The notes beneath the pieces are model-generated. The model was not told where the DNA came from. It was given only the letters and a program-made list of their open reading frames with translations, and did no database searches. From a virus, in the IMG/VR virus record IMGVR_UViG_3300010885_009545, positions 1-23,083 of that record: a DNA stretch of 23,083 bases. One strand, 5' to 3'. This document shows, in pieces, positions 3,271 to 22,374 of this stretch. The translations under genes and the position numbers were made by a program. Numbering within the stretch: the stretch's first letter is position 1; the number at the start of each line of letters is the position of its first letter.

Positions 3271-3274
3271 ACAA

Positions 3275-3282: not shown

Positions 3283-3292
3283 AAAGAAAAAA

Positions 3293-5493: not shown

Positions 5494-5496
5494 AAA

Positions 5497-8262
5497 ATGA
5501 ATGATACATTTTTTAAGCCTTCATTAAATATAGAATCATTTATTGGTGAAAATTCTTCCGTTAACACGGAAAGATTTTTGCTATTTGTAAAAGCATACTA
5601 TGAATGGATGCAATCTACAACATTATCACTAACCAATAAAACTGGAACGTTTGTTGTTGGTGAAACTATTGTTGGCGCAACTTCTGGCGCAATTGCATCG
5701 ATCAAAGAATTTAAAACAAACTCTATTGTAATTGCATCAACATCAAGAACTGTATTTGCATATTCTGAAAGTATTACTGGTCAGACTTCTGGTGCTACTG
5801 CAACAATCAATATAATTAAAGACAACGTTGGTCGTGCATCAGGAAATATTTTAAACTACAAAAATATTGAAACTTCCATCGACAAATATGTTGATTATCT
5901 CAGAGAAGAATTATATCCTAGCATACCTTTATCATACTATGGTGATAAAAAATTAATTGCACAATACTTTAAAGATTTTTATGAATCTAAAAGTAATGAG
6001 CAATCTTACAGATTCTTGTTCAAACTTTTATACAATGAAGATATTGATTTTTATTATCCAGGAGAAGATATTCTTCGCATATCTGATGGTAACTTTGAAA
6101 AGACACAAATCATCAGAACAATTTCTGTGTCAGCCGACACTAGAGACATATTCTTATTTTTAAACAAAACTATTCGTGGACAGACTTCTGGTGTTCTTGC
6201 GAACGTAATTGATATTAAAAAATTCTTTATTGGTGCGGTAGAAATTGCTGAAATGACACTTAAACTTGTCAGTGGTACGTTTACTGCTGGTGAAAATATT
6301 GTTGATATTGAGGATGCAGATTTATCTACAACAATTTATGGTATTGTATCGGGTATTATAATAGTAGATGGTGGTTCTGGTTATGAAGAAGGTGATATTA
6401 TTATCATCACTGGTGATGGATTGGAAGCACAGGCAAAAGTATCTTCAATTAAAGAATCGCCAATTAGCGCATTAAAAATAAATACAATTGGGCATGGTTA
6501 TCAATTAAATACCGAAGCAACAATCAACAACACAGGAACTGGTGGTACTGGTTTTAGTTTTAAAGTTTCTGAACTTGCAAATACATACTCAGTAACTTCT
6601 GGTGCAAATACATATACTGTTGGTGAAATTTCTAAATTATCTATTATCAATAGAGGTGAGGGATATTTTAAAAAGCCTTCTGTTATACTACAAGATACAA
6701 TCATCGCATCTTTAGGATTATTGTCTAACAATTTAATTACAATTGTTAATGCTGGTACAAATTATGGTGTCGGAAACACATTGGTGTTTACTGGCGGTGC
6801 TGGCGTAAACGCAGCCGGACAAATTGCATCTGTCACAGAAACTATCACATACGATCTTCTTTTTGAAGATGGGCAACGAATGTTAGCTGATGGCAGTTAT
6901 TACGACATTATTAAAAATCAAGATTGGTCAGTAAAGGGTCCGATCAAACGTATTGAACTAACAAATTTCGGCACTGGATATACTTCAGCAAATTTACCTT
7001 CAATTACTATATCTACAACAACTGGTTCTAGTGCAAATTTAATAGCAACAAATATTCAAGGTAAAAGTGCAAATGTTAGTATAGACACTTCAAACAATAT
7101 TACTGGTATTGGATCTATTCGTTCTGTTGAAATTACCAATTTTGGTATCAACTATAGTACAGCCAATGCATCTACATCTACTGTTGGTGATGGTAACGCA
7201 AACGTTACCGTAACTATTTCAGGATTAGGAATCAAAGAAGGCGTTTTATTAAATGACGATGGTAAAATTGATTACAAAATTATTCAAGACTCATATTACT
7301 ATCAAGACTACTCTTATGTTATTCGAAGCGGATTAGTTTTTTCTGCGTATAGAGATACACTCAAAAGCATTATTCATCCGGCAGGTTTACAAGCGTTTGG
7401 TGAAATTTTAATCAAGAGTATATTTGACGTTACGCCAATTATCAGTAGCACAATTGACATTTTGAGTAACTTGAATGAATATATTTTGAGCATTCTTTCT
7501 ATCTTCAATATTTCTTCTAGTGTTGCACAATCTAAATATACTAGAATTATGAGTAGTATAGCAGATACAAGTTCTTCTTTGGTGTCAAATAGAGAAGTTC
7601 AAGTTTATATTTCACCAAGTACACTGGATACCACATCAACTTTTGATACAACATTAGGAATTATTACACAAAGTCAATTTGATCTTTCATCCGATATAAG
7701 TGACCAATATATATTATCAATTCCTTCGGAGTTTGATGCATATGAAAGTTCTTCTTTGGTGTCAAATAGAGAAGTTCAAGTTTATATTTCACCAAGTACA
7801 CTGGATACCACATCAACTTTTGATAGTGGAACATTAGGAATTATTACACAAAGTCAATTTGATCTTTCATCCGATATAAGTGACCAATATATATTATCAA
7901 TTCCTTCGGAGTTTCTTGCATATGGAACAATTTATGATGATTTTATTATTTCGAATTATGCAAATACGTTGATTTCAACATTCTCTTCATTTTCATTCAA
8001 TACAATCTTTACAACTGAGCCTAATGTAACTGGTGTATATGACAAGAATATTAAAATTACAGGAACAGTCACATTTTCAGGCAATAATGTTATTGGTACT
8101 GGAACAAGTTTTGCCAATAATTTCTCAATTAACGATTCTTTTATTGTTAATAATGAAAAATTTATTGTTAAAAGTGTGGCAAATTCAACATTTTTGCAGG
8201 TAAACGTAAATCCTGTGGGTTCTTACACAAATGTTTTAGCATATAAGCAACAAGTGGCTTAA
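5497..8262 (+). CDS. Large baseplate wedge protein in the gp7 position
   Basis: A 921-aa structural protein between gp6 and gp8, where T4 has gp7 (1032 aa). Residues 1-40 are a helical start (ERFLLFVKAYYEWMQ). Gly/Ser beta-modules of the type GETIVGATSGAIASI occur near 53, 88 and 225. A conserved helical block, about 128-200, includes YLREELYPSIPLSYYGDKKL and YNEDIDFYYPGEDILRISDG. Residues 285-575 carry six or so G-x-G-Y modules (GGSGY, GHGY, GEGY, GTNY, GTGY, GINY). DSYYYQDYSYVIRSG and HPAGLQAFGEI follow near 600-640. A near-identical 59-aa duplication lies at about 692-809, and a GTGTSF module ends the protein (854-908). I cannot show homology to T4 gp7 by eye; gp7 is a synteny-based inference. 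A virion baseplate role is very likely. Confidence 0.82.
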   Translation: MNDTFFKPSLNIESFIGENSSVNTERFLLFVKAYYEWMQSTTLSLTNKTGTFVVGETIVGATSGAIASIKEFKTNSIVIASTSRTVFAYSESITGQTSGATATINIIKDNVGRASGNILNYKNIETSIDKYVDYLREELYPSIPLSYYGDKKLIAQYFKDFYESKSNEQSYRFLFKLLYNEDIDFYYPGEDILRISDGNFEKTQIIRTISVSADTRDIFLFLNKTIRGQTSGVLANVIDIKKFFIGAVEIAEMTLKLVSGTFTAGENIVDIEDADLSTTIYGIVSGIIIVDGGSGYEEGDIIIITGDGLEAQAKVSSIKESPISALKINTIGHGYQLNTEATINNTGTGGTGFSFKVSELANTYSVTSGANTYTVGEISKLSIINRGEGYFKKPSVILQDTIIASLGLLSNNLITIVNAGTNYGVGNTLVFTGGAGVNAAGQIASVTETITYDLLFEDGQRMLADGSYYDIIKNQDWSVKGPIKRIELTNFGTGYTSANLPSITISTTTGSSANLIATNIQGKSANVSIDTSNNITGIGSIRSVEITNFGINYSTANASTSTVGDGNANVTVTISGLGIKEGVLLNDDGKIDYKIIQDSYYYQDYSYVIRSGLVFSAYRDTLKSIIHPAGLQAFGEILIKSIFDVTPIISSTIDILSNLNEYILSILSIFNISSSVAQSKYTRIMSSIADTSSSLVSNREVQVYISPSTLDTTSTFDTTLGIITQSQFDLSSDISDQYILSIPSEFDAYESSSLVSNREVQVYISPSTLDTTSTFDSGTLGIITQSQFDLSSDISDQYILSIPSEFLAYGTIYDDFIISNYANTLISTFSSFSFNTIFTTEPNVTGVYDKNIKITGTVTFSGNNVIGTGTSFANNFSINDSFIVNNEKFIVKSVANSTFLQVNVNPVGSYTNVLAYKQQVA
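7569..7925 (+). repeat. Near-identical in-frame direct duplication (~177 bp + ~180 bp) in the gp7-position gene
   Basis: The block starting SSSLVSNREVQVYISPSTLD is encoded at about 7569-7745 and again at about 7746-7925. The copies match almost base for base. The second gains three bases (Ser-Gly insertion near 7826), and the copies differ at their ends (GATGCATATGAA against CTTGCATATGGA). Synonymous sites are unchanged through the core, so the duplication is recent or kept identical by recombination. Confidence 0.95.
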
Positions 8263-8269
8263 AAAAAAG

Positions 8270-8277
8270 TATAAATA
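8270..8277 (+). promoter_or_regulatory. Candidate T4-type late promoter (TATAAATA) before gp8
   Basis: A perfect TATAAATA followed by G lies in the 56-base gap between the gp7-position gene and gp8, 41 bases before the ATG, with a ribosome binding site (AAAGGAAAAAA) downstream. T4-like late promoters need only this -10-like box, read by gp55/gp33. Being intergenic and well spaced makes it more credible than the copies inside genes at 10146 and 15902. Confidence 0.6.
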
Positions 8278-8318
8278 GTAAGTAAATTTAACGAACAAAT
8301 TTCAGTAAAGGAAAAAAC

Positions 8319-9599
8319 ATGCCTTCCATAGTAACTAGCAAATTCAGAGTCCACAATGCACAACAGTTTGTGGAGTCTTTCTCAGAGGCGTCAAACAACA
8401 TAATGTATTTGTTTGTCGGAAAAAACACCGCATTTCCAGACGATAATAACCCGCCAACACCAGTAAATTCTACAGCAAATATTGAATATACTCCGTGGCG
8501 TGACATGTTTGGCGCAAAGCGTATTCAATCGACTGATGTAACACACGCAATTGAACGCTATAACTGGACTTCAGGCACAGTTTATGACCAGTATGACGAT
8601 CAAGACACGAATATAACAGATGACGATTTCTATGTTATTACTGACGAATATAATGTATACAAGTGTTTGTTTAATGCGGTGGCTACAGCATCAACAACAA
8701 AACCAACAGGTATAAGCACGGTACCATTTACAACTGCTGATGGTTATATTTGGAAATACATGTATACAGTTACCACAGCAAATGCTTTGAAGTTTTTGAC
8801 AAATGATTATATTCCAGTTCAGACTTTACTCGCTGATGGTGGTGAAGATCAATGGGATGTTCAAGCGGCCGCAGTGAATGGTGGTATTCACGTTATTAAA
8901 GTGGTTTCTGGTGGTTCTGGATACGCTACTGCGCCTGCGGTTACAATTACTGGCGATGGCACAGGTGCTACCGCAAACTCTACAATTGTTGCTAACGTAG
9001 TCACAAGAGTTACAGTTATTGCGCCTGGAACAGGATATACAAGAGCAACAGTTGCATTTGCTTCTGGCGCGGCGACTGCCAACGCAATCATTTCACCAAG
9101 AGGTGGCCATGGTGCAGATGCGATTGAGGAGTTGGGCGGTAAGTTTGTTATGATTAACTCTCGTTTAGATGGTAGTGAATCTAATACAATTTCTACAGCA
9201 AACGAATTCAGGCAAGTTGGTTTGGTTAGAGACCCAACCTTGTTTGGAACTACAACAAGAGCAACAGCATCTTCATTTAGACAAACTTTCCGTTATACTG
9301 TAGCAAACACTGGTAACTATACATTAGATGAAATTGTTACGAGCGGAAGTAATACTGCATTTGTTGTTGAATGGGATGCAACAAATAGTTTGTTGTACAC
9401 AACAAAGCCACTCAACAGCAACTTTGCAAATGGTGCAACGATAACCGGTAGTAGTTCAGGAACAACTCGCACAATTACCGCAATTAGTACTGCAAGTTTA
9501 GAACCATACTCTGGTGATTTATTGTATGTTGAAAATAGAGTTCCAATTGCAAGAGCAACCGATCAAATTGAAGACGTAAAATTGATTATTCAATTCTAA
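8319..9599 (+). CDS. gp8: Baseplate wedge subunit gp8
   Basis: A 426-aa protein with the N-terminal pattern of T4-like gp8. MPSIVTSKFRVHNAQQFVES is followed by NIMYLFVGKNTAFPDD, PWRDMFGAKRI, YNVYKCLFNA and the conserved DGYIWKYMYTVTTANALKFL with NDYIPVQT (about residues 140-170). T4 gp8 is 334 aa. The extra length is at least partly a Gly-rich beta insertion near 195-265 (GGSGYATAPAVTITGDGTGA, then PGTGYTRA) of the same G-x-G-Y type as in the gp7-position protein, and a GATITGSSSGTTRTI module near the end. gp8 dimers bind the outer wedge and contact gp7 and gp10. The start is supported by the ribosome binding site at about 8307-8317 and by the TATAAATA box upstream. One GCGGCCGC site (8865-8872) encodes an Ala triplet here. 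Confidence 0.9.
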   Translation: MPSIVTSKFRVHNAQQFVESFSEASNNIMYLFVGKNTAFPDDNNPPTPVNSTANIEYTPWRDMFGAKRIQSTDVTHAIERYNWTSGTVYDQYDDQDTNITDDDFYVITDEYNVYKCLFNAVATASTTKPTGISTVPFTTADGYIWKYMYTVTTANALKFLTNDYIPVQTLLADGGEDQWDVQAAAVNGGIHVIKVVSGGSGYATAPAVTITGDGTGATANSTIVANVVTRVTVIAPGTGYTRATVAFASGAATANAIISPRGGHGADAIEELGGKFVMINSRLDGSESNTISTANEFRQVGLVRDPTLFGTTTRATASSFRQTFRYTVANTGNYTLDEIVTSGSNTAFVVEWDATNSLLYTTKPLNSNFANGATITGSSSGTTRTITAISTASLEPYSGDLLYVENRVPIARATDQIEDVKLIIQF

Positions 9600-9624
9600 G
9601 ATAAAAAATAGGTTAAAAAATTAA

Positions 9625-12600
9625 ATGGCAAATACAAATCCTGGTGGTGTGGAGTTAAACACCAGTCCATACTTTGATGATTATGATGAAGACAAAAAGT
9701 TTGTAAGGATTCTATATCGTCCTGGGCGTGCTGTTCAGGCTAGAGAACTCACACAAGCACAAACTCTTCAACAAGTGCAGACTAGACGTTTTGCTGAATA
9801 TTTTTTCAAGCAAGGCTCATTAGTTGACGGGTGTGAACAAAATCTAGATTTAAATTTAAGTTTTGTCAAACTTCAATCTACATATAATGGTAGTGCAGTT
9901 GATGTTGAGGACTTTAATGGTAGTATAGTTTATGGTGCAAACAGCGGCATTAAAGCATATTGTGGATTAGTTGCCGATATTGACGCAAACGATCCAAAAA
10001 CATTGTTTGTTAGCTATGCAACAAATGGAACGCAAGTTCTTACAGTAAACGTTGCGCCATCTACACTTACATCAGGAAATACAATTACCTTTTCAACAGG
10101 TAATACTGCAACAATTGAAGCATATCACATAGATCCGATTACGGGTATAAATAAAATCTTTGTTTCAAACACAACTGGAACATTGACTGCAACAACTGTA
10201 ACCACAGTACTAAGCACTGGTTCAACTCAAGTAATTAACGTAACAAATGTTTCAAATCAAACTGCAAATACTTCATTTGCAAACTCAGAAACTATTTTCA
10301 CAGCAAACACAACAAACAGAGCATATGCGGCTGGTGCATTAATAAACGCAACACGTAATGTTGTTGATGAGGGGCTTGCTACAGAACAAGTATATAATTA
10401 CGGATCTAAGATTACCATATCCGAAGGTGTTGTTTATGTTGCAGACCATTTTGTTAAACATTCTACACAAACAATTATTCTTGACAAGTACACGAACGAA
10501 CCTTCTTATAAAGTTGGATTAGTTCCAAGCAAATCTTTTGTTGATTATATTGAAGATCAAAGTCTTGTTGACAATGCACAAGGCACACCAAACTTTCAAG
10601 CGCCTGGTGCTGATAGATTAAAAATTGATACAATTCTAACAAAAGTTGCGTTAGATGAAACTACCGATGAAAATGAATTTATTACAGTTACAGAAATTGA
10701 TACTGGCGTTGCTAGAAAAAGAAAAATAATTACTGTAGATAGTAAGCTGGAAGATGTTTTAGCAACACGCACCCGAGAAGAATCCGGTAACTATACGCTG
10801 TCCGATCCAATTGTTTATGTTCGTGAGCATTTAGAAAATGGTGACAATGGTGGTAGATACACTTTGACTGAAGGTGGTAACACAGATTTGCTTTTGGTTG
10901 AAGTTGATCCATTTACATCTTATGTGTCTGGTTATAGAAATCAAATCATTGCAAAAACTCCAATAGAAATTGAAAAGGGTCTTAGCACAGCTTACGTGCA
11001 ACAAACTAATACACAAATCAATTATGGACAATACATTGAAGTTAATGAAGTTGTTGGTGGTTGGGACATTATGGAATCAACTACTGTTGATCTGTACGAT
11101 ACAGCACAACAAGTCATTACAAACTTAGCACATTCAACCGCAACAGTAACCGGTAATGCTATTGGTACTGCAAGAGTGCGTTCTATTGAATATGTGAGTG
11201 GTGCTAAAGGCACTGCCGATGCAAGATACTATTTTTACTTGTACGATATTGTAATGAGTAGTGGTAAAACATTTTCTCAAGTTCGTGCTATATTTGATTC
11301 CGCAACACCAAAACGTTTTGCTGATATTGTAACAACTACCTCTGGTGCTGTTTTGCAAGAAACATCATTTGGTACAATGATTTTTCCATTACCATATGAT
11401 GCAATTAAAACTGTGCGTGATTCTTCAGAAAACGTTGAATCTGCATTTAGATTTAAAAAGAAATTTGCTGTTACATTTTCTTCGGGTATTGCTACTATTG
11501 CAACTGACGTTGTTACAGAAACATTCATTGGTACGGATACATTAAACGCTACACAGAAAAACGATTACTACATGGTTGTTGTTAACAATGCTGGTGCAAA
11601 CGTAACAACTTCCGCGTTGACGGGCACTGTTACTATTGCGGCCGCAAATACTATTGTTACTGGAAGTGGAACTGCTTTTACCACACAATTGAATGTTGGT
11701 GATTTAATTACTATTAATGGTTTAACAAGATCAGTTGCCACCATTGTATCGGACACCTCATCAACTCTTTCAACTGCACACACAACTGGTGCTATTTCAA
11801 ACACATTCACCAAAACTCTTGCGTCAGGAACAATTCTTTCGCTTTCCGGTAATGGTGGCTCAGGAAGCACACGAACAGTTAGTGTTTCGTCTCCCGGAAC
11901 AGTAGCAATTAATGTTAAAGAAAACGCAACATTTACGGCTGATGTTATTGTCTCTATGGACAGAGCAAGTGCAAAAGAAAAAATTAAAACATTAAGTTTT
12001 CAAACACAAACAAACATCAATCCAAACACACATCCAAATTTATTGTCTGGACCATTTGGTTTAGGTGTTGGCGATATATATCAATTACGTGCTGTTTATC
12101 AATCATCGTCATTTGCAGTTGCAGCATCTACAGCAAACACAAACGTTACTGCAAATTATGTATTGGATAATGGACAACGTGACTATGCATACGAACACGG
12201 AACAATTACACCAATTACTGGTTACGTTCCAACGGGTAGATTGTTAGTAGTCTTTGACAACTTTACGCACGATACATCTCAAGGTGTTGGATATACATCA
12301 GTTAATTCATATCCAGTTAACGATGACGTATCATCAAATACTACAATCACAACTGCTGACATTCCTATATTCACAAGTCCTACGACTAAGAACATTTTTA
12401 AACTTCGTGACTGTATTGATTTTAGACCAATTAAAACCGCAAACACATCTTTGAATCCAATTGATGTTGGGACATATCAGGTTCCAACATTTGGACTTCG
12501 TATTCCTGAATCTGGTTCAGATTTTGATGCAGATTTAATTTACTACAAAGGTAGAGTTTCTAAAGTATACATCAGCAGTAGTGGTGTGTTTGGTATCAAC

Positions 12601-15600
12601 GATGGTGTTCCTGCACAAGCAGGCAATCAAAGAGCAGAGACACCACCAACCAAACCTGATACATTAGAGATTGCAGAATTAATTATTCCAGCATATCCAT
12701 CAATGCCATCTGAAGTTAAAATTAAATTGTTGAAAAACAAACGTTTTACAATGCGTGATGTTGCTAAAATGAATGAAAGACTCGAAAGACTTGAGTATTT
12801 TACAGCATTAAGTTTTTTAGAGAAACAAGCAACAGATACAACAGAATTAGATGCTGATGGTTTAGACAGATTCAAGAATGGTATTCTTGTTGATCCATTT
12901 ACAGGTTGGGCTATAGCATCTACGTCTGATGATGCTAAAAATTGTTCTATTGATAAAAGAAATAGGTTTTCAACTTGCTTGCAAGATAATTCAAACACAT
13001 CAGGATTTCGATATTCTACTACGTTGTCAACGACAACAATGAACTCCGGTAACAAAATTATGTTGCCATATGTTGAAATTGAAGCGCCAGGATTAAAACA
13101 ACAATATGCTTCTAAACAATTAAGACTTGCAGAAGAATTAAACTTTCTTTGGACCGGTGAATTGTCTATAATGCCATTTACGGATAACTTCTTTGAAACT
13201 GAAAATGATCCAGACAAAGCAGTTGTATATACTGATGACCAAGGCGCAGACAATTGGAAGGCCTTAATTAACGCATGGAACACAGAAGTTGCTCCATTAA
13301 CTCAGCATTGGCTTGGTGGCACCGCACAAACTGGAATTGTTGCTGGTACAACTCAAACTACTCAAGTGGGAACCAACATGGTTACCACAGCAACGCAACA
13401 AACAACTCAAGAAGCATACAATCAATTAGCATCAGGCAGCCAGGCGGCCGCAAGTACACAAGAAGTTAAATTCGACAGAGTTGTCAAGGTAGAAGTTGCA
13501 CTATGGATGCGTCAACGTGAATTTGTTATTCACGCTAGAGGACTAAAAAATAATTCTAGAGTGTATGCATTTTTTGATGGTATTAACGTTACCGCAAACT
13601 GCTATCAGATTGAATTGATTGGCGCTTCTACTACATTACAAACATTAAATTCTAAATTTGGCGTTAATACTACAACAGGTCTTATTGAATTGGGTGATGA
13701 AGGCGTAACATGGCGTGCAATTGCTGATGGTGCAAGTCAAGCATTCACTATCAAGAACAATCAAATCTATTTGTTGTTTCAAGTTCCTTCAACAAAATTT
13801 TACACTGGCCAGCGTGAATTCAGAGTCACAGACAGTCCTACAAATTCTGAAGGCACCACACTAACTAGCGCAAGAAATAACATTTATGCACAAGGTATTT
13901 TACAAAAGACTGGCACAGTTACAATTAACTCTCGACCGTTCAATGTATCATTTAATAATACAAACAACATTAAAAGTTTAGGTAAAAAAGTTGTTTCAAC
14001 AAAAACTGTTGAAATTTCAAGTGTGCCAATTCCGCCACCGCCGCCAGTAACTACCGACCCATTGTCTCAGAGTTTCTATGTTGATCCAGATACATATCCA
14101 ACAGGATTCTATTTGACTTCTATCGATTTGTTCTTCAGAGCAAAATCTCAAGACGATAACAGAAACGTTACTATTGAAATTCGTGAACTTGAAAATGGAT
14201 ATCCATCACCACAATTTATTAGTGACGGAGACATTGCACTTGTCAATAATAGAGATATTGCCATCAGTGAGGATTCAACATCAGCAACAAAATTCACATT
14301 CAAAAATCCCATTTACTTGAATGCTGGTAATGATTATTGTTTCGCAGTTAAGCCCGAAAACAATGATCCGGACTTTGCGATTTGGGTTGCAGAATTAGGC
14401 GCAATTGACATTACTAATCCAGATAAGCAAACAAGAATTGAACAAGCATACAATAGCGGATTGTTATTCACATCTTCTACTGACAGAACGTGGACAGCAA
14501 AACAAAATACTGATATGAAATTCACAATGAGGATTGCAGAATTCAATACTTCCGCTAAACTTGCCTATTGGACTAATATTTCAGTGCCAACTGCGTTCAC
14601 ATACGATGCATTAACTCCTGCTATTAGCGACCAGATTCTTCCGGGAACAAATATAAATTATGATATTAAGACAACAGATAGCACATATGCAGTTGATTCT
14701 GATTATACTACAATTAAGAATTATGAAAGATTGGTATTTCTTTCTAGAAAACAAATTTCAACATCTACCGTAGAGACAGCAAACGCATTTAAATCTCTGC
14801 AAGTAAGAGCAACATTGTCTACAACGGATAGATTTATCAGCCCATATATTGATGATGAGAATATTATCTTTCACTTTGATAAAAACATTATCAATAATTC
14901 TTATGAAACAGCAATAACTGGTACAGTCAGATATGGATCAAGTAACAATATTGTTGTAGGCACTGGCACAAGTTTTACGACTGAAGTATTTCCTGGTGAA
15001 TATGCATACTTTGGTGATGAGTATCGCAGAATTGCTTCAGTATCAAATAACGTATATTTGACTGTTACAAATAACTTTACAACAGCCAATGCTGTCAGCC
15101 AAGCAATGACTATTCGCAATGAAGAAAATCCAACAGGACCATATTCTTCAGAGTCTAGATACATCACTAAAGTTGTGACATTGAATGACGAATTTGAAGC
15201 ATCCGATTTAGTTGTGTATTTGAAAATCAATCGTCCACCAGGAACTTCAGTTAAAGTTTACTGTAAGCTATTGAATGAAAATGATACAGATGCATTTGAC
15301 TATAAATTCTATACTCCTATGGAATTAGTTGGAACAGAAACGTTCACGCTAAATCAGAATCAGTACAAAGATGAAAAGTTTATTGTTCCTTCGGGCACAA
15401 AAACTGGTGGTTCTGAATTGCTTTTGGGTACAGTTGCAGTCTCTAACGTATCAACTACAGTTACTGGCACATCTACTCGCTTCACAGAAGACTTGAAAAT
15501 TGGCGATATTATTGCTGTTGGTACTGCTAGAACAGAGCGTGTAGTTTCTACAATTGCAAATAACGTATCATTGACAGTTGAATCTGCATTCTCTACACTT

Positions 15601-15771
15601 GCTTCTACGCAAAACTTTTTCCGTGTTCTAAATAACACAGTCGCATATACAACACCTGACGGAAGAACATTTCAAGGATACAAATATTTTGCAATTAAAA
15701 TTGTTTTCTTATCTGGCAATCCAAGTTATGCGCCAAAAGTTAAAGAGTTAAGAGGAATAGCATTAGCATGA
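9625..15771 (+). CDS. Giant baseplate/fibre-attachment protein with DUF4815-like N-terminus
   Basis: At 2048 aa this is the longest gene in the window. The first 75 residues (NTSPYFDDYDEDKKFVRILY, PGRAVQARELTQAQTLQQVQ, KQGSLVDG) match what I know as the DUF4815 family of phage structural proteins, found after gp8 in T4-like aquatic phages where T4 has gp9/gp10. After long beta-rich and Thr-rich segments come a charged helical stretch (MRDVAKMNERLERLEYF, about 1040), a Pro run (PIPPPPP, 1468-1474) that looks like a hinge, and a beta-sandwich-like domain (DPLSQSFYVDPDTYPTGFYL, LFFRAK, VTIEIRELENGYPSP). Three GTGTSF-type modules sit near 665-715, 1764-1820 and 1934-1992. It probably forms the outer baseplate rim and anchors fibres. 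The start follows a weak TAGGTT. The end overlaps the next gene by four bases. It is unusually long but shows no break. Confidence 0.82.
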   Translation: MANTNPGGVELNTSPYFDDYDEDKKFVRILYRPGRAVQARELTQAQTLQQVQTRRFAEYFFKQGSLVDGCEQNLDLNLSFVKLQSTYNGSAVDVEDFNGSIVYGANSGIKAYCGLVADIDANDPKTLFVSYATNGTQVLTVNVAPSTLTSGNTITFSTGNTATIEAYHIDPITGINKIFVSNTTGTLTATTVTTVLSTGSTQVINVTNVSNQTANTSFANSETIFTANTTNRAYAAGALINATRNVVDEGLATEQVYNYGSKITISEGVVYVADHFVKHSTQTIILDKYTNEPSYKVGLVPSKSFVDYIEDQSLVDNAQGTPNFQAPGADRLKIDTILTKVALDETTDENEFITVTEIDTGVARKRKIITVDSKLEDVLATRTREESGNYTLSDPIVYVREHLENGDNGGRYTLTEGGNTDLLLVEVDPFTSYVSGYRNQIIAKTPIEIEKGLSTAYVQQTNTQINYGQYIEVNEVVGGWDIMESTTVDLYDTAQQVITNLAHSTATVTGNAIGTARVRSIEYVSGAKGTADARYYFYLYDIVMSSGKTFSQVRAIFDSATPKRFADIVTTTSGAVLQETSFGTMIFPLPYDAIKTVRDSSENVESAFRFKKKFAVTFSSGIATIATDVVTETFIGTDTLNATQKNDYYMVVVNNAGANVTTSALTGTVTIAAANTIVTGSGTAFTTQLNVGDLITINGLTRSVATIVSDTSSTLSTAHTTGAISNTFTKTLASGTILSLSGNGGSGSTRTVSVSSPGTVAINVKENATFTADVIVSMDRASAKEKIKTLSFQTQTNINPNTHPNLLSGPFGLGVGDIYQLRAVYQSSSFAVAASTANTNVTANYVLDNGQRDYAYEHGTITPITGYVPTGRLLVVFDNFTHDTSQGVGYTSVNSYPVNDDVSSNTTITTADIPIFTSPTTKNIFKLRDCIDFRPIKTANTSLNPIDVGTYQVPTFGLRIPESGSDFDADLIYYKGRVSKVYISSSGVFGINDGVPAQAGNQRAETPPTKPDTLEIAELIIPAYPSMPSEVKIKLLKNKRFTMRDVAKMNERLERLEYFTALSFLEKQATDTTELDADGLDRFKNGILVDPFTGWAIASTSDDAKNCSIDKRNRFSTCLQDNSNTSGFRYSTTLSTTTMNSGNKIMLPYVEIEAPGLKQQYASKQLRLAEELNFLWTGELSIMPFTDNFFETENDPDKAVVYTDDQGADNWKALINAWNTEVAPLTQHWLGGTAQTGIVAGTTQTTQVGTNMVTTATQQTTQEAYNQLASGSQAAASTQEVKFDRVVKVEVALWMRQREFVIHARGLKNNSRVYAFFDGINVTANCYQIELIGASTTLQTLNSKFGVNTTTGLIELGDEGVTWRAIADGASQAFTIKNNQIYLLFQVPSTKFYTGQREFRVTDSPTNSEGTTLTSARNNIYAQGILQKTGTVTINSRPFNVSFNNTNNIKSLGKKVVSTKTVEISSVPIPPPPPVTTDPLSQSFYVDPDTYPTGFYLTSIDLFFRAKSQDDNRNVTIEIRELENGYPSPQFISDGDIALVNNRDIAISEDSTSATKFTFKNPIYLNAGNDYCFAVKPENNDPDFAIWVAELGAIDITNPDKQTRIEQAYNSGLLFTSSTDRTWTAKQNTDMKFTMRIAEFNTSAKLAYWTNISVPTAFTYDALTPAISDQILPGTNINYDIKTTDSTYAVDSDYTTIKNYERLVFLSRKQISTSTVETANAFKSLQVRATLSTTDRFISPYIDDENIIFHFDKNIINNSYETAITGTVRYGSSNNIVVGTGTSFTTEVFPGEYAYFGDEYRRIASVSNNVYLTVTNNFTTANAVSQAMTIRNEENPTGPYSSESRYITKVVTLNDEFEASDLVVYLKINRPPGTSVKVYCKLLNENDTDAFDYKFYTPMELVGTETFTLNQNQYKDEKFIVPSGTKTGGSELLLGTVAVSNVSTTVTGTSTRFTEDLKIGDIIAVGTARTERVVSTIANNVSLTVESAFSTLASTQNFFRVLNNTVAYTTPDGRTFQGYKYFAIKIVFLSGNPSYAPKVKELRGIALA

Positions 15772-16016
15772 TGGTAGAAAAAATTAAAATTGCCGAGCCT
15801 GTCCGTGGGTTCACAGAGAGAGACAAAAATTCTAAAGCTATTTTAAATACGGATATGAATTCTCTCTTAAAGTATAAAATTCAGAAACGAAAAATTTCTG
15901 ATATAAATAAAAGTACAAACGAAATTGAATTGATTCGTAAAGAAATAGACGAAATTAAATCCGATTTGAATGAAATTAAAAACATGCTGTTTCAAATCAC
16001 CAATAGTAAAAAATAA
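15768..16016 (+). CDS. Small coiled-coil protein between the giant baseplate protein and the tail fibre
   Basis: 82 aa. Two adjacent ATGs (15768 and 15771) both overlap the upstream TGA; either could be used, and coupling to the giant gene is clear. Residues 1-35 are basic with FTERDKNSKAILNTDMNSLL. From about 40 to 78 the protein is a regular heptad coiled coil (NEIELIRKEIDEIKSDLNEI continuing to KNMLFQI) with Ile/Leu at core positions. A short N-terminal binding segment plus a coiled coil suits an adaptor or a trimerising connector between baseplate and fibre, but no family is recognised. The next gene begins three bases after its stop. Confidence 0.75.
   Translation: MMVEKIKIAEPVRGFTERDKNSKAILNTDMNSLLKYKIQKRKISDINKSTNEIELIRKEIDEIKSDLNEIKNMLFQITNSKK
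15902..15909 (+). promoter_or_regulatory. TATAAATA motif inside the coiled-coil gene, possible fibre promoter
   Basis: A perfect TATAAATA lies 110 bases upstream of the fibre ATG, within coding sequence (D-I-N-K). T4-like phages do use late promoters inside genes, but in AT-rich DNA about two such octamers are expected by chance over a window of this size. Confidence 0.25.
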
Positions 16017-16019
16017 AAA

Positions 16020-18311
16020 ATGTCAATTATTACAGTAGCACTATCAAATACGTTCGGCGAATTTAGAACAACAGTTAATGAAATTATCACCACACTTAAT
16101 GCGGTGTCTAGTGGTTCGGGCATCATCAATGCAAACACTTTAACTGGTGGTACAGTTGCTGCAAACAATTTAACTTCGGGAAGAGTCACACTTGCGACTA
16201 CCGCAGGTCAACTAACGGATGATTCTGCACTTACATATGATACAGCAACAGACATATTAACACTTGCGGGTACGACAGATTCTAGCAATTCAATTACTGG
16301 CACACTTAAAGTGGCTGGTGGTGTTGGTATTGCTAAGAAATTGTATGTCGGAACAGATATTGTTACCGGTGATAATAACCTTTTACAATCCGGTAGAGTA
16401 AAAATAACATCAAATTCTTCTGGTGGTTATATTCTTCAAAATGATAATAGTCCTTTGTATCTTGGTGCTAATACTAGTTATCCTTTAACAATAGAGACAG
16501 GTGCAACTGCGGCTACAAGTAATGTTAGAATTCTTAGTAATTTAACAATCGATAACAACTTAATCTTGGGCAATGCAGAAGCCAGCGACATTCATACGAT
16601 TAAAGGCGCTACTACACTGCTGGCCAACAGCGCCAACGCAGCCTTAATCGTTACTCAAACAGGAGCAGGAAATGCTTTTGTGGTCGAGGATTCGACCAGT
16701 CCGGACAGTACGCCGTTTGTGATTGATGCAGATGGTGCTATTGTTCAAGGCTATACGGCAACCGTAAACAACTGGAATGCTACGCCAGATTCAATAGCAA
16801 GTCATTCAACCGCCAGCCCAAAACCTAGTGTTGGTCTTTACAACTGGTCTAACAACACTGCGAGAATTCCGGGTTTTTATTTAAATAAGAGCGTAAGCAA
16901 TACTATTGGCACGCGAGGAATTGTTAGTAATCTTCAGCAGCTTGGAAGGGTTGTTTTTAGCGGGGATGATGGAGCGACATTTATACGTGCTGCTGAGATT
17001 GACGCATTTGTAGACGGGACACCGGGTTTAAATGATATGCCGGGTGGTTTACGATTTAATACCACGGCAGACGGGGCTAGTTCGCCGACTGAGCGTATGC
17101 GGATTGATAGTGCGGGGAACGTGGGGATTGGTAACACTTCACCAATCACTAAACTTCATGTCGGCGGCGCAGGCACTACGGCAGCGTTTTATACCAACGG
17201 TGATGCAAATGGTTCTACTGCATATCTTCAATCGACTGGAAGCACTGCGGGAGACGGTGGACAAATACTGTTTGGTGCTTCTCAAGGTGTTTTTGCTGGC
17301 ATCAAAGGCATGATTGCTAGTGGCACTGGGCCTTCGGGTGACTTAATATTTCAAACTCGCACAACGTCTGGAAACGTCATTGAGCGTATGCGGATTAATA
17401 GTACGGGAGGTGTTGGAATTGGTACCGCTTCGGTTGCCACTTGGGGAACATTTGCGGTGCGAGCCAACAATGCCGGCGGAACAATAGTTTCCGCAATTGT
17501 TAATGAGAGCGGCACAGCAAACTCACAAGCTGTCTTGTCGCTTGATCCAGGCGGCAGCGGTTTTAATGTTCGTGATAGTCAAATTAGAGCAAGAAATAAC
17601 GGCTCCAATCAAACATCTTTAGAGTTTTACACATCAAATGCCGGCACACCAGCAGAGCATGTACGGATTACAAACTTAGGCGATGTGGGTATTGGGACAA
17701 CTTTGCCATCTACAAAGTTGCAGGTAATTGGCACTGTCACGGCAAATACATTTGTTGGACCACTAACTGGTAACGTCACTGGTAACGTCACTGGTACTGC
17801 TGGTTCTGCAACAGGCAACGCCTTAACAGCGACTACATTACAAACCGCCCGTGCAATTAACGGTGTATCGTTTAACGGTTCTGCTGCTATAACAATAACG
17901 GCGGCTGCAACAAACGTATCAACACAATTGTTATCTCTTGGTGTAGGAACAGCGGCAAGTGGCAACACTGGTGAAATTAGAGCGACCGATAGCATCACAT
18001 CATTTTTCTCTGATGAAAGACTAAAAAACTTTCACGGTCGTATTGACGGCGCCCTTGGCAAAGTGCAACAGCTTAACGGATATTACTTTAAAATAAATGA
18101 TCTCGCTAAAGAGTTAGGTTACGATAATGATCGTATGCAAGTTGGTGTCTCTGCTCAAGAAGTGGAAAGTGTAATGCCTGAAGTAGTCACAGATGCGCCA
18201 ATTAGCAATGAGTACAAAACTGTTTGGTACGAAAAATTGGTGCCATTGTTGATAGAAGCAATTAAGGAATTAAAAGCCGAAGTTGATGATCTTCGCACGA
18301 AAGTAAAATAA
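16020..18311 (+). CDS. Tail fibre with C-terminal S74 intramolecular chaperone
   Basis: A fibre protein of 763 aa. The N-terminus (ALSNTFGEFRTTVNEIITTL) resembles attachment segments of T4-like phage fibres. The shaft is Thr/Gly/Asn-rich with fibre phrases such as ITGTLKVAGGVGIAKKLYVG and three RMRIxSxGxVGIG-type repeats (near 360, 458 and 550). The last ~100 residues are a peptidase S74/endosialidase-type chaperone domain. It starts SFFSDERLK, with predicted catalytic Ser664 and Lys669 in the same spacing as the known Ser-Lys dyad, and continues with GYYFKIND, VGVSAQEVESVMPEVV, WYEKLVPLLIEAIKELK and a terminal coiled coil. Known S74 domains fold the trimer, then cleave themselves off before the Ser, leaving a mature fibre of about 663 aa. 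Bases about 16560-17720 look richer in G+C than the flanks, suggesting a swapped shaft segment. It is a likely receptor-binding or fibre component. Confidence 0.9.
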   Translation: MSIITVALSNTFGEFRTTVNEIITTLNAVSSGSGIINANTLTGGTVAANNLTSGRVTLATTAGQLTDDSALTYDTATDILTLAGTTDSSNSITGTLKVAGGVGIAKKLYVGTDIVTGDNNLLQSGRVKITSNSSGGYILQNDNSPLYLGANTSYPLTIETGATAATSNVRILSNLTIDNNLILGNAEASDIHTIKGATTLLANSANAALIVTQTGAGNAFVVEDSTSPDSTPFVIDADGAIVQGYTATVNNWNATPDSIASHSTASPKPSVGLYNWSNNTARIPGFYLNKSVSNTIGTRGIVSNLQQLGRVVFSGDDGATFIRAAEIDAFVDGTPGLNDMPGGLRFNTTADGASSPTERMRIDSAGNVGIGNTSPITKLHVGGAGTTAAFYTNGDANGSTAYLQSTGSTAGDGGQILFGASQGVFAGIKGMIASGTGPSGDLIFQTRTTSGNVIERMRINSTGGVGIGTASVATWGTFAVRANNAGGTIVSAIVNESGTANSQAVLSLDPGGSGFNVRDSQIRARNNGSNQTSLEFYTSNAGTPAEHVRITNLGDVGIGTTLPSTKLQVIGTVTANTFVGPLTGNVTGNVTGTAGSATGNALTATTLQTARAINGVSFNGSAAITITAAATNVSTQLLSLGVGTAASGNTGEIRATDSITSFFSDERLKNFHGRIDGALGKVQQLNGYYFKINDLAKELGYDNDRMQVGVSAQEVESVMPEVVTDAPISNEYKTVWYEKLVPLLIEAIKELKAEVDDLRTKVK

Positions 18312-18338
18312 ATATGAAAGATGCACTCTCATATTTAC
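18310..18338 (+). other. AT-rich inverted repeat at the end of the fibre gene
   Basis: TAAATATGA (18310-18318) pairs perfectly with TCATATTTA (18330-18338) around an 11-base loop. The stem overlaps the fibre stop codon and lies in the 43-base gap before the first kelch-like gene. No T-run follows, so termination is doubtful; an RNA processing or stability role is possible. Confidence 0.35.
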
Positions 18339-18354
18339 AAACTAAACAAAAAAC

Positions 18355-19296
18355 ATGGCAATCTCACTAACCGCAACTGGTGTGCTATTTCCGAATGGCT
18401 CCGCTAGAACCACAGCGAGCGTCCTTCGCTACCGAAATAAAGCTATATTTGGTTATGGGGTCCCTGGCAGTGTTGGCTCATTAACAAACCAAGTAAACAA
18501 CACCGGTCTTGTTGCAACGGATGTAACTGGTGTTGGTACTGCTAGAGGACTTCTTGCTGCGGCCGCTTATGGAGGTGATAAAGCTATATTTGGTTATGGA
18601 CAAAATGATGCCCCTACATCCTTATCAATGACCAATCTTGTATCAAACACAGGTGTTGTGGGCACCGATGTTACAGGTGTAGGCACTGCTAGATATCGTC
18701 TTGCAGCAGCTGGATATGGTAATGATAAAGCTATTTTTGGTTATGGACTCGATGACACCCCCACAAACTTATCACTCACTAACCTAGTATCAAACGTTGG
18801 TGTTGTAGGCACCGATGTTACAGGGGTAGGTACTGCTAGACATTCTCTCGCAGTTGCTAGTTATGGTAACGATAAAGCTATATTTGGTTATGGGTCTACT
18901 GGTGTTGATGTATCAACCACCAACCTAGTATCAAATATAGGAGTTGTTGGCTCTAATGTAACGGGGGTCGGTACTGCAAGGTCTAATCTAGCTGCTGCTG
19001 GTTATGGCGGTGATAAAGCTATATTTGGTTATGGGTCCACAGGCGTTTATCTTTCAATGACCAACCTAGTATCAAATACAGGTGTTGTTGGTACGGATGT
19101 GACAGGAGTTGGTACAGCAAGATCAGGTCCAGCGGCGGCCGCTTATGGTGGTGATAAAGCTATTTTTGGATATGGATCTAACGGAACAAATCTATCACTC
19201 ACTAACCTAGTATCAAACGTTGGTGTTGTGGGCACCGATGTTACAGGGGTTGGAACTGCCAGACGCTTTCTTGCTGCTGCTGGTTTTGGATCGTAA
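18355..19296 (+). CDS. Six-repeat kelch-like propeller protein, paralogue 1 of 3
   Basis: 313 aa. Residues 1-25 (MAISLTATGVLFPNGSARTT) form a short leader resembling virion-attachment starts of phage fibre proteins. Six units of 47-49 aa follow. Each reads AIFGYG, a variable loop of 5-9 residues, a strand (S/T-x-TNLVSNxGVV), TDVTGVGTAR, two variable residues, then LAAAGYGGDK. The R-x-x-L-A-A-A-x-Y-G-G-D-K-A-I-F-G-Y-G order parallels a kelch blade (R-x-x-hydrophobic run, then I-Y-x-x-G-G). The protein begins mid-unit (NKAIFGYG) and ends with the missing half (RRFLAAAGFGS), as a propeller closed by its C-terminal strand would. It lies just after the S74 fibre gene. It is probably a surface-exposed adhesin or fibre-tip protein; function and fold are inference. 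No clear ribosome binding site is seen. Confidence 0.85.
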   Translation: MAISLTATGVLFPNGSARTTASVLRYRNKAIFGYGVPGSVGSLTNQVNNTGLVATDVTGVGTARGLLAAAAYGGDKAIFGYGQNDAPTSLSMTNLVSNTGVVGTDVTGVGTARYRLAAAGYGNDKAIFGYGLDDTPTNLSLTNLVSNVGVVGTDVTGVGTARHSLAVASYGNDKAIFGYGSTGVDVSTTNLVSNIGVVGSNVTGVGTARSNLAAAGYGGDKAIFGYGSTGVYLSMTNLVSNTGVVGTDVTGVGTARSGPAAAAYGGDKAIFGYGSNGTNLSLTNLVSNVGVVGTDVTGVGTARRFLAAAGFGS

Positions 19297-21174
19297 GAAA
19301 GTAAAATGACAACATCATTAGTATCAACAGGTATTCAGTATGCCGATGGTTTCATTGAAACATCGCTGTATGCAAGCACATCCCGTGCTATTTTTGGGTA
19401 TGGAAACAGCACGACCTACACAACATTAACAAACCAAATAAACAACATCGGACTTTGTGCAACGGATGAAACTGGTGTTGGTACTGCTAGATCAGGTCTA
19501 GCGGCGGCCGCCTATGGAGGCGATAAAGCTATTTTTGGGTATGGGTATAATGGTGCATATGTATCGATGACTAACTTAGTATCCAATCTAGGTGTTGTCG
19601 CTGCTGATGTAACAGGTGTTGGGACTATTCGGTGGACTCTCGCAGCGGCCGGCTACGGCGGAGATAAAGCTATTTTTGGGTATGGAGAAAATACTACGGA
19701 AAGATCAATGACTAATCTAGTAACAAACACGGGTGTTGTTGGAACCGATGTAACTGGTGTTGGTACTGCTAGATCAGGTCCAGCGGCGGCCGCTTATGGA
19801 GGCGATAAAGCTATTTTTGGGTATGGTAGTGATTTTTCAAATGCATATACACTTACCAACCTAGTATCCAATCTAGGTGTTGTTGCTGCTGATGTAACGG
19901 GTGTTGGAACTGGTAGGTCTGATCTTGCTGCGGCTGGTTATGGTGGTGACAAAGCTATATTTGGTTATGGCAATGCCTCAGGTACGGACGTATCAGTTAC
20001 CAATTTAGTATCAAACACAGGAGTTGTTACTGCTAACGTTACTGGGGTTGGCATAATAAGAAGGCGTCTTGCGGCCGCTGGTTATGGTGGTGATAAAGCT
20101 ATATTTGGGTTTGGTAGTTCAGGTGCCGCCACAAAAAGATCAATAACTAACTTAATATCAAACATAGGAGTAGTATCCGCCGATACTACAGGGGTAGGCA
20201 CTGCTAGAAATTATATAGCCGCGGCCGGATACGCATCTTAAGGAAATATTATGGCAACAATAATTAATTATGATGGTATTCTGTATCCTGACAGTGTACA
20301 GTCATACTCTCTGGGTAGATTTCAACGTGCTATATTTGGATATGGATTTACCACTACAGCAGTATCAATAACAAATCAAGTGAATATTAATGGGCTTGTT
20401 GCTGTTGATGTAACAGGTGTTGGTACTGCTAGATACTTTCCTGCCGCGGCCAGATATGGCGGGGATAAAGCTATTTTTGGGTATGGGAGGGATAACAATC
20501 CTGTTAATGTATCAATGACTAATCTAGTATCTAATACAGGTGTTGTTGCAGCAGATGTAACTGGTGTTGGTACTGCTAGATTTGGGCTTGCGGCCGCAAG
20601 TTATGGCGGTGATAAAGCTATTTTTGGGTATGGAGATACTGGCTCTTTCACAGCAATAACCAACAAAGTATCAAATATAGGAGTTGTCGCTACTGATACT
20701 ACCGGAGTTGGAACCGTTAGAGCTTATTTGTCTGCTGCTGGTTATGGCGGTGATAAAGCTATTTTTGGGTATGGATACACCGGCTCTTTTGTTTCAATGA
20801 CTAATCTAGTATCTAATACAGGTGTTGTTGCAGCAGATGTAACAGGTGTAGGCACTGCTAGAGAATCTTTGGCTGCTGCTGGTTATGGCGGTGATAAAGC
20901 TATTTTTGGTTATGGGGAAGATGGTACAGATAGATCAATTACTAATCTAGTATCAAACACGGGAGTTGTAGCTACAGATACGACTGGTGTTGGTACAGCA
21001 AGGTACGGTCTTGCCGCCGCTGGTTATGGTAGTGATAAAGCTATTTTTGGTTATGGAATCGCAGGAACAAACTCATCACTAACAAACCTAGTATCCAATA
21101 CTGGTGTTGTTGGTACTGATGTGACCGGAGTTGGAAGTGCTAGACGCTATCCTGCAGCGGCAGGTTTCGGATCG
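18436..21174 (+). repeat. Array of 18 kelch-like repeat units of 141-147 bp over three genes
   Basis: In paralogue 1 the D of DKAIFGYG falls at 18577, 18724, 18871, 19012 and 19153, giving 147- and 141-base steps; in paralogue 2, 19522 and 19663 are 141 bases apart. The conserved blocks are long enough for homologous recombination within and between genes, while loop lengths change by whole codons. Confidence 0.9.
19306..20241 (+). CDS. Six-repeat kelch-like propeller protein, paralogue 2 of 3
   Basis: 311 aa, nine bases after paralogue 1, with AAGAAAG as a weak ribosome binding site. The leader (MTTSLVSTGIQYADGFIETS) keeps the pattern T-G-(I/V)-x-(Y/F)-x-(D/N)-G of paralogue 1 but differs elsewhere. 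It has six units with the same start- and end-half arrangement (begins RAIFGYG, ends RNYIAAAGYAS). Its variable loops differ from those of the neighbours (NSTTYTT, YNGAYVS, ENTTERS, SDFSNAYT, NASGTDVS, SSGAATKRS), as do the two residues after each GTAR/GTIR. Some repeat joints are the same DNA as in paralogue 1, for example the RSGPAAAAYG segment near 19770-19800 against 19120-19148. Four of the nine GCGGCCGC or near-match Ala tracts of this cluster lie here. Duplicated from a common ancestor; the role is the same inferred one. Confidence 0.85.
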   Translation: MTTSLVSTGIQYADGFIETSLYASTSRAIFGYGNSTTYTTLTNQINNIGLCATDETGVGTARSGLAAAAYGGDKAIFGYGYNGAYVSMTNLVSNLGVVAADVTGVGTIRWTLAAAGYGGDKAIFGYGENTTERSMTNLVTNTGVVGTDVTGVGTARSGPAAAAYGGDKAIFGYGSDFSNAYTLTNLVSNLGVVAADVTGVGTGRSDLAAAGYGGDKAIFGYGNASGTDVSVTNLVSNTGVVTANVTGVGIIRRRLAAAGYGGDKAIFGFGSSGAATKRSITNLISNIGVVSADTTGVGTARNYIAAAGYAS

Positions 21175-21177
21175 TAA
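20251..21177 (+). CDS. Six-repeat kelch-like propeller protein, paralogue 3 of 3
   Basis: 308 aa, nine bases after paralogue 2, with a good ribosome binding site (AAGGAAAT just before the ATG). The leader is the most diverged (MATIINYDGILYPDSVQSYS) but keeps D-G-I-L-Y-P-D. Six units follow, again starting mid-unit (RAIFGYG) and ending with the complementary half (RRYPAAAGFGS). Variable loops are FTTTAVS, RDNNPVNVS, DTGSFTA, YTGSFVS, EDGTDRS and IAGTNSS. Units two and four share a run of about 50 identical bases (20511-20560 and 20797-20846), so repeats within the gene have recently exchanged sequence. The stronger ribosome site compared with paralogues 1 and 2 may change relative dose. Likely a virion-surface protein; not demonstrated. 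Confidence 0.85.
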   Translation: MATIINYDGILYPDSVQSYSLGRFQRAIFGYGFTTTAVSITNQVNINGLVAVDVTGVGTARYFPAAARYGGDKAIFGYGRDNNPVNVSMTNLVSNTGVVAADVTGVGTARFGLAAASYGGDKAIFGYGDTGSFTAITNKVSNIGVVATDTTGVGTVRAYLSAAGYGGDKAIFGYGYTGSFVSMTNLVSNTGVVAADVTGVGTARESLAAAGYGGDKAIFGYGEDGTDRSITNLVSNTGVVATDTTGVGTARYGLAAAGYGSDKAIFGYGIAGTNSSLTNLVSNTGVVGTDVTGVGSARRYPAAAGFGS

Positions 21178-21210
21178 ATTAATTTTAACATGAAAAGGAA
21201 ATAAAATATT

Positions 21211-21864
21211 ATGGCATCAAATTTAAATAGTGAATTCAACTATCGCTATCAAGTGAATGGGGAAACACCATGGGAAAAACTCAAACACCTTCAAAACTTC
21301 CTTGAAGGCAGAAAACGTGCTGCCGCTCTCGAAGAGGTGGCGGATCTAAAGCGCCAAGCAAAACACGCTGAGTTGCAATCGCTTAAAGACAACAATGCTC
21401 TACCTCATTTGATTTTGAACATGAGGGCTGAGATCATTGAGATGGAATCTGTACAGGAAGATCAACGACACAACTTTGATTTGAACCGCAAAGAGTTGCA
21501 GATTCTATACAAACTGATCGATGAGTTGTATGTGATTGTAGAGCCAACACGACAAAAACACAAAGATGGCACACCGTACACAGACGATGAAATGTTTGAG
21601 GCAAATGCTGCAAACGAATTCACTGTGATGATTGGTAAAGAAATTCAAGCTGAAATTGTAGCAACAGGACGCCCATCGCCAGCAAAGTTGCGTAATGCAA
21701 TGTCTAACCCTTATACGTTTCATGCCTTGCAGCAAGTAGGATTCATACCTAAAGAGATGGTTCTATTGGAAGGCAATGCTGATCCCTTGAAAATTGAATT
21801 GCGCCAATCGCCTTCAATGATTCAATTGACAACAGAAGAAACACAACAATTGGAGAATAAGTAA
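21211..21864 (+). CDS. Conserved helical protein of unknown function
   Basis: 217 aa with a clear ribosome binding site (AAAAGGAAAT upstream). The sequence is mostly helical and charged. It has an aromatic start (NYRYQVNGETPWEKLKHLQN), a long basic-acidic helix (FLEGRKRAAALEEVADLKRQ continuing to about residue 60), a second helical stretch (NMRAEIIEMESVQEDQ to about 110), and a C-terminal domain with DGTPYTDDEMFEANAANEF and GRPSPAKLRNAMSNPYTFHA. I recall similar proteins near fibre genes of aquatic T4-like phages but know no function. It has no signal peptide and no metal or nucleotide motif. It is coupled to the next gene by a one-base overlap (TAATG at 21862-21866). A fibre-assembly or chaperone role would fit the position but is a guess. 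Confidence 0.75.
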   Translation: MASNLNSEFNYRYQVNGETPWEKLKHLQNFLEGRKRAAALEEVADLKRQAKHAELQSLKDNNALPHLILNMRAEIIEMESVQEDQRHNFDLNRKELQILYKLIDELYVIVEPTRQKHKDGTPYTDDEMFEANAANEFTVMIGKEIQAEIVATGRPSPAKLRNAMSNPYTFHALQQVGFIPKEMVLLEGNADPLKIELRQSPSMIQLTTEETQQLENK

Positions 21865-22271
21865 TGTTCCGCCTTTGCACAGTAGAATCAACAACCCTAC
21901 AAACAATATTTGGAAACCGTGGCATTGGTCTGGAAGATGCCACACAACCAAAGTATACAAATCTTCATACCATCACAATCGGGCAGAAGCCTGATTGTTC
22001 TGGTTATCTCTTGTTCTCAGATCAGGTGGTTGAAGAATTCACACAACAATCCTCAGTACCCGAAGGATATGATTTCATCTTTAGGCAAGCGTGGGGTCTT
22101 AGAATCACAGAAGAAATTTTGCATCGTGTGATTGATACTCTTAGATCCGAATCGTATCCACCAATGGCCGACTACCTTGATGCTAAAGTCAAGGGGGATG
22201 CTGCACAAGAAGCTGATTACATTGCTAAGTGTCAAGCGGTGAAGACCAAGTATCCCAAGTTTTCTTTCTAA
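21864..22271 (+). CDS. Small protein with YPPMADYLDA/VKxKYPK C-terminal motif, possible fibre-assembly factor
   Basis: 135 aa, starting at the ATG that shares one base with the upstream stop. The N-terminal ~80 residues are an alpha/beta domain (LHTITIGQKPDCSGYLLF, WGLRITEEILHRVID). The C-terminal ~40 residues carry YPPMADYLDAKVKGD and CQAVKTKYPKF. A similar pattern (tyrosine-proline, then D-x-L/A-D-A, and a final VK-K-Y-P-K) occurs at the ends of short phage proteins encoded beside tail fibres or tail genes, some annotated as tail-assembly or XkdW-like. That resemblance is from memory and low in confidence. The gene is the last before the intrinsic terminator, so it closes the baseplate/fibre transcript. 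Confidence 0.75.
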   Translation: MFRLCTVESTTLQTIFGNRGIGLEDATQPKYTNLHTITIGQKPDCSGYLLFSDQVVEEFTQQSSVPEGYDFIFRQAWGLRITEEILHRVIDTLRSESYPPMADYLDAKVKGDAAQEADYIAKCQAVKTKYPKFSF

Positions 22272-22295
22272 GTACATTACAAGATTATTTTGAAT

Positions 22296-22318
22296 CCCGG
22301 GCTTGTCCCGGGTTTTTT
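22296..22318 (+). terminator. Strong intrinsic terminator
   Basis: CCCGGG (22296-22301), a 5-base loop CTTGT, CCCGGG (22307-22312), then six T (22313-22318). It is a pure G+C stem in AT-rich surroundings, 24 bases after the last stop codon, so it ends the baseplate/fibre transcription unit. Confidence 0.93.
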
Positions 22319-22334
22319 ATTGAAATTTCAATAT

Positions 22335-22342
22335 TATAAATA
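22335..22342 (+). promoter_or_regulatory. Candidate T4-type late promoter before gp13
   Basis: A perfect TATAAATA lies right after the terminator and 32 bases before the gp13 ATG, with AGGGG (22361-22365) as ribosome binding site between them. The terminator-promoter-RBS order makes this the best-supported late promoter in the window. Confidence 0.7.
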
Positions 22343-22374
22343 GAAGAAAGAAATTCATTAAGGGGCACAAGTAA

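Follow-up and report, generated by a model that had tools for sequence, protein, structure and literature searches.

The NotI octamer in a clade of T4-like phages: a probable by-product of restriction-site avoidance

Avoidance of restriction sites has been described in phage genomes, and GCWGC was one of those investigated (Rusinov et al. 2018, PMC6286503). As in the phages analysed here, short palindromes were strongly under-represented in non-temperate dsDNA phages, with near-complete elimination in some viruses. HIP1 and the other highly iterated palindromes of cyanobacteria share with the octamer described below the character of a G+C-rich 8-base palindrome occurring above compositional expectation, and a possible tie of the core word to a methyltransferase (Elhai 2015, PMC4390886). 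The nearest named relatives of our phage are the Pelagibacter phages HTVC008M and Mosig and the Methylophilales phage Melnitz (Kyanoviridae), with gp6 identities of 37-40%. Each carries one copy of GCGGCCGC, the NotI octamer, encoding Ala-Ala-Ala as it does in our sequence. A literature search on an excess of the NotI octamer in phages returned nothing relevant.

The octamer in the window and in related phages

The window, that is the whole stretch of DNA analysed, is a virus record of 23,083 bases without any other contig. It represents a fragment of a T4-like myovirus, in which baseplate and neck homologues follow one another in order and the PHROGs families baseplate hub/lysozyme, tail fibre and head-tail adaptor were recognized. 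Its gp6 matches 2359 phage records, the best being Pelagibacter phage HTVC008M with 40% identity. Positions 18355-21177 contain three consecutive, tandem paralogous fibre-like genes with the repeat context AAA-x-YGGDKAIFGYG. Fibre genes with DKAIFGYG repeats are widespread in IMG/VR (412 relatives confirmed); the window's fibre protein had no match among isolate phage records.

At a G+C content of 37.9%, the window holds nine exact copies of GCGGCCGC (Table 1), the commonest of its 8-base palindromes. A preliminary description had located these copies and set the chance expectation at about 0.04. Its coordinates were exact, and the expectation was 0.038 from composition only and on average 0.01 in dinucleotide shuffles, which never yielded nine. 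Its statements that each copy reads GCG-GCC-GCN in frame and that other Ala tracts of the window are spelt differently were likewise borne out, the former for 9/9 copies. Three copies are single sites in baseplate-type genes, the other six lie in the tandem fibre repeats.

Table 1 Copies of the octamer and zones of GCWGC avoidance in the window
Feature	Position	Strand	Context
GCGGCCGC	8865..8872	+	GCG-GCC-GCA, gp8-like baseplate gene (8319-9599)
GCGGCCGC	11638..11645	+	GCG-GCC-GCA, 2048-aa structural gene (9625-15771)
GCGGCCGC	13444..13451	+	GCG-GCC-GCA, 2048-aa structural gene (9625-15771)
GCGGCCGC	18559..18566	+	fibre repeat, ORF 18355-19296, AAAAYGGDKAIFGYG
GCGGCCGC	19135..19142	+	fibre repeat, ORF 18355-19296; context near-identical to 19786
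GCGGCCGC	19504..19511	+	fibre repeat, ORF 19306-20241
GCGGCCGC	19786..19793	+	fibre repeat, ORF 19306-20241; likely duplicate of 19135 context
GCGGCCGC	20071..20078	+	fibre repeat, ORF 19306-20241
GCGGCCGC	20590..20597	+	fibre repeat, ORF 20251-21177
GCWGC-purged part	1..15771		baseplate genes, 3 octamers; [ACT]GCWGC[AGT] 2 seen / 15.6 expected
Part without GCWGC purge	15772..23083		fibre module to gp13-like, 6 octamers; [ACT]GCWGC[AGT] 23 seen / 29.3 expected

Relatives were collected by scanning IMG/VR with gp6, fibre, gp13 and gp8, which gave several hundred loci, some 215 of them classifiable. Genes were called mechanically. The IMG/VR loci overlap and are related to one another; they were de-duplicated by context, and homology-collapsed counts were used where possible. 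In the first gp6 set, GCGGCCGC topped all 8-mers in over-representation (62-fold over dinucleotides), occurring in non-homologous genes and nearly always in the Ala frame. The over-representation thus recurs in many related phages, and its presence across non-homologous genes makes it a property of the clade rather than an accident of the window. The enrichment amounts to about 50-fold over the dinucleotide expectation. Sorted by frame, the octamers of the relatives numbered 69 against 5.4 expected for Ala, 5 against 0.8 for Gly-Gly-Arg-type sites and 0 against 0.04 for the third frame. The earlier characterization as always Ala-Ala-Ala therefore holds for all nine copies in the window and not for the relatives. 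Measured against codon usage, the octamer is in 10-30 fold excess.

Avoided words and the spelling of alanine tracts

Depletion of short words was assessed by synonymous shuffling within genes, which preserves the protein and the codon usage. Most classifiable loci lacked [ACT]GCWGC[AGT]: nine GCAGC contexts totalled 4 occurrences against 1328 expected, and with Ala tracts masked the word was seen 5 times against 1208. The depletion of GCWGC is bimodal over the loci: the observed/expected ratio (O/E) is under 0.1 in 133 of them and exceeds 0.6 in about 60; the thresholds for these two classes, hereafter erasers and non-erasers, were set after the histograms had been seen. Plain GCWGC was discarded as the erased word on the evidence of the flank tables and replaced by [ACT]GCWGC[AGT]. 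In erasers GGCAGCC was seen 86 times against 30 expected, and GGCWGCC is in about threefold excess. In a 150-kb relative (G001), GCWGC occurs 19 times against 170 expected (17/148, 0/12.2 and 2/9.6 in the three frames). Its O/E of 0.11 compares with 0.9-1.35 for most one-base neighbours, but GGAGC (0.35) and GCAGG (0.67) are also low. CGCG is absent from this genome (0 seen, 89 expected); its depletion extends to many, but not all, of the phages (158/138 in G436).

Many classical restriction sites are missing or nearly missing from erasers as well: AAGCTT (0 seen/343 expected), AGATCT (0/394), ACGCGT (0/90), GAGCTC (0/67) and CTGCAG (13/477). In G001 (loci L169-L176) and about 149 eraser loci, AAGCTT, AGATCT, ACGCGT, AGCGCT, GAGCTC, CTGCAG, CGWCG and the non-palindromic GAGCT are jointly near-absent. 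As is expected of restriction-site avoidance, the depletion stands out against the protein and codon background, is mostly word-specific and extends to all reading frames. The pattern of avoided words thus resembles the signature of such avoidance, and the putative restriction targets are read from that pattern. The genome of G001 also encodes a tmRNA (tag ANDSRFALAA; L170:4378-4767) and 24 tRNA genes that together serve almost every amino acid (tRNA block L170-L171); the tmRNA tag may point to a beta-proteobacterium as host. A search for hosts with gp6 in genome contigs returned unrelated bins only, and a search by tmRNA over 398 genomes gave matches limited to short conserved parts.

Octamer density differs between the two classes. 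It was 5.9 per 100 kb in purged contigs (55 copies over 927 kb) and 0.28 per 100 kb in 12 non-eraser contigs, excluding a subgroup B treated below (2 copies over 727 kb; Mann-Whitney p = 1e-5, or 0.002 with subgroup B among the unpurged), the contigs being those long enough to search and not a random sample. Two near-complete erasers contain 4 copies in 150 kb (G001) and 9 in 143 kb (G436).

We propose that GCGGCCGC arises mainly as a by-product of the avoidance of restriction sites and is not a signal, a reading to which we assign a probability of about 0.6. The counts show that [ACT]GC[AT]GC[AGT] has been erased, in every reading frame, from the genomes of most members of this T4-like clade. 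Given the genetic code, GCA or GCT before GCN makes GCWGC, so that Ala-Ala would be written GCS-GCN; with GCA-GCD and GCT-GCD forbidden, Ala-Ala-Ala would be pushed to GCS-GCS-GCN. Among the spellings left, GCC-GCG makes the depleted CGCG, and GCG-GCC makes GGCC, which the counts show as depleted except within CGGCCG. GCG-GCC-GCN therefore escapes all three avoidances and becomes the common spelling. The erased words would correspond to recognition sites of type II restriction enzymes that the phages encounter, or once encountered, in their hosts.

Several observations bear on these steps. As neither GCA nor GCT can precede GCD without forming the erased word, Ala-Ala pairs of erasers start with GCC or GCG: 89% of isolated pairs did so in purged loci against 20% by codon usage, compared with 21% against 17% in unpurged loci. 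In erasers with a strong GGCC purge, CGGCCG was found 45 times against 16.4 expected (2.7), and all other GGCC contexts reached 0-0.37 of expectation. At the site orthologous to 8865, 31/31 purged sequences use codons free of [ACT]GCWGC[AGT], 21/31 of them GCG-GCC-GCN (mostly GCG-GCC-GCA), and non-erasers mostly have GCT-GCA-GCA. The tract orthologous to 11638 reads GCG-GCC-GCN in 7/8 eraser loci; for 13444, no orthologous tract occurred among the loci fetched.

The window itself is divided. Avoidance of [ACT]GCWGC[AGT] changes sharply where the fibre module starts (Table 1). Upstream, other avoided sites are scarce (GAGCT 0 seen/11.1 expected, CGWCG 0/8.1, CGCG 2/10.4), and three of four Ala tracts are octamers against 0.04 expected from codon usage. 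Downstream, other avoided sites remain low, e.g. GAGCT (1/6.3) and CGWCG (0/4.7). The break could reflect mosaicism of the genome, a purge that was lost recently or an assembly that is chimeric. Erasers and non-erasers both occur among phages whose gp13 is 97-98% identical to that of the window, so either the trait switches fast or these phages have mosaic genomes. The avoidance account applies directly to the three baseplate copies. The six fibre copies probably came from purged relatives and increased in number as the repeats were duplicated. Their position in the unpurged stretch (6/9 window copies) counts against avoidance as the full account.

Residual excess and alternative explanations

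Avoidance leaves part of the excess standing. A phased fifth-order Markov model with Ala tracts masked predicted 21 octamer tracts in erasers against 65 found (12 against 38 homology-collapsed), and 0.5 against 9 in non-erasers. An explicit site-penalty model with flank rules, CGCG and GGCC contexts gave 9-20 against 65, varying with the sites included. A simpler codon-pair model predicted 14 against 17 in a first sample and 31 against 64 in a larger one. The purge hence explains a large part of the excess and the contrast within the clade, and what is left is a real excess of about threefold that is specific to the octamer or to CGGCCG. Since the octamer is also in excess in the Gly-Gly-Arg frame, this residue acts at the DNA level. 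Subgroup B (L050, L056, L061, L311 and L313), which was singled out after its hits had been seen, shows no GCWGC purge, yet contains 10 octamers in 116 kb; 7 of its 20 Ala tracts are octamers against 0.4 expected, and the contig behind L313 (G441) later added two sites. Four isolate phages carry one octamer each, all as Ala-Ala-Ala, and the parts of them that were read show no GCWGC purge. The residue may owe something to GC-rich codons clustering within genes and to a protected or favoured CGGCCG. In erasers, GGGCGCCC is likewise about 20-fold over the synonymous expectation (15 seen/0.7), with several homologous copies (NTGARSNLF).

Two other explanations were weighed against avoidance and appear very improbable. 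A few founder copies arisen by chance could have been multiplied by the tandem fibre repeats, and six of the nine window copies do lie in paralogous repeats, at least two of them in near-identical contexts. With the copies at 19135 and 19786 at least apparently recent duplicates, the independent events are fewer than nine. However, the three single-copy baseplate sites and the distinct contexts among relatives (71 in erasers, 10 in non-erasers) have no such origin, as the preliminary description had already argued from the window. Duplication, which does add to the number of copies in the fibre genes, is refuted as a complete explanation. To be rated slightly lower still is a translational codon-pair bias at Ala-Ala-Ala, acting on the mRNA or ribosome and not on DNA. 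Almost every copy is read in the Ala frame, and Ala-Ala pairs are strongly biased, with GCA and GCT avoided as the first codon. The GCWGC depletion behind this pair bias is, however, present in three frames, which largely refutes the explanation; it depends on flanking bases outside the codons, non-erasers of similar codon usage lack the pair bias, and Gly-Gly-Arg copies exist. The possibility raised in the preliminary description, that codon context might account for the spelling entirely, pointed the right way: much of the codon-triplet bias, though not the full excess, is explained by purging of [ACT]GCWGC[AGT] at the DNA level. Pure codon usage was rejected (2 expected against 65), as was an mRNA hairpin, the one 20-nt context tried folding worse than most of its shuffles.

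A less improbable alternative, which we nevertheless hold to be unlikely, is that the octamer or its core CGGCCG is favoured at the DNA level, either as a HIP-like word or because a methyltransferase of the phage or of its host protects it. A protected site would escape, or help against, GGCC restriction, with Ala-Ala-Ala as its easiest placement. The excess beyond hexamer context (about 3-fold in erasers and 17-fold in non-erasers), the enriched Gly-Gly-Arg frame, the exemption of CGGCCG from the GGCC purge and the excess of the full 8-mer over its 7-of-8 neighbours agree with this, and in both classes no other 6-base palindrome is as over-represented as CGGCCG (2.9x and 2.2x). The near-complete erasers G001 and G436 encode a protein of 533-542 aa with a TSPPY amino-methyltransferase motif (L398:1495-3096, L397:283-1902), 79-80% identical among three contigs. 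On the other hand, octamer density tracks the GCWGC purge, and CGGCCG outside the octamer reaches only 1.3x in strongly GGCC-purged loci. The weak N6/N4-methylase match of the TSPPY protein is below the Pfam cut-off, and its gene, found in 3/28 contigs, also occurs in one non-eraser contig. The C5-methylase family PF00145 is missing from 23/24 contigs, including all searched erasers. A phage C5-methylase was accordingly rejected as the protector. In its specific form, in which modification of CGGCCG by phage or host shields the inner GGCC and the word is positively favoured in purgers of GCWGC and GGCC as well as in GCWGC non-purgers, the idea is offered tentatively, at somewhat lower odds. 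The earlier suggestion of a modification site keeps only indirect backing: CGGCCG is exempt from the GGCC purge, and the roughly threefold octamer-specific excess extends to phages without a GCWGC purge, but no GGCC- or CGGCCG-specific methyltransferase was assigned. For the proposed binding, packaging or host-wide motif, nothing positive was found.

Comparison with known systems

If restriction-site avoidance is the main cause, avoiding a single short word can produce what looks like a signal at another place, here a HIP1-like octamer that is largely the spelling still permitted for poly-alanine. Avoided words should be controlled for when phage genomes are searched for enriched motifs. Since the purge is discrete, differs at 97-98% gp13 likeness and follows sharp flank rules, it could reveal restriction systems met by uncultured phages.

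In contrast to the avoidance described by Rusinov et al. (2018, PMC6286503), the purge observed here follows a flank rule, with [ACT]GCWGC[AGT] erased and GGCWGCC in excess. It also differs between close relatives and, as judged from sequence, creates an over-represented octamer. HTVC008M, Mosig and Melnitz differ from the erasers in that the regions read show no GCWGC purge; GATC and CGCG are purged instead. The analogy with HIP1, drawn in the preliminary description, fails on density, the long contigs having about 6 copies per 100 kb. The octamer GCGGCCGC further differs in its core from HIP1 (GCGATCGC), and it occurs in phages, where it largely tracks the avoidance of another word.
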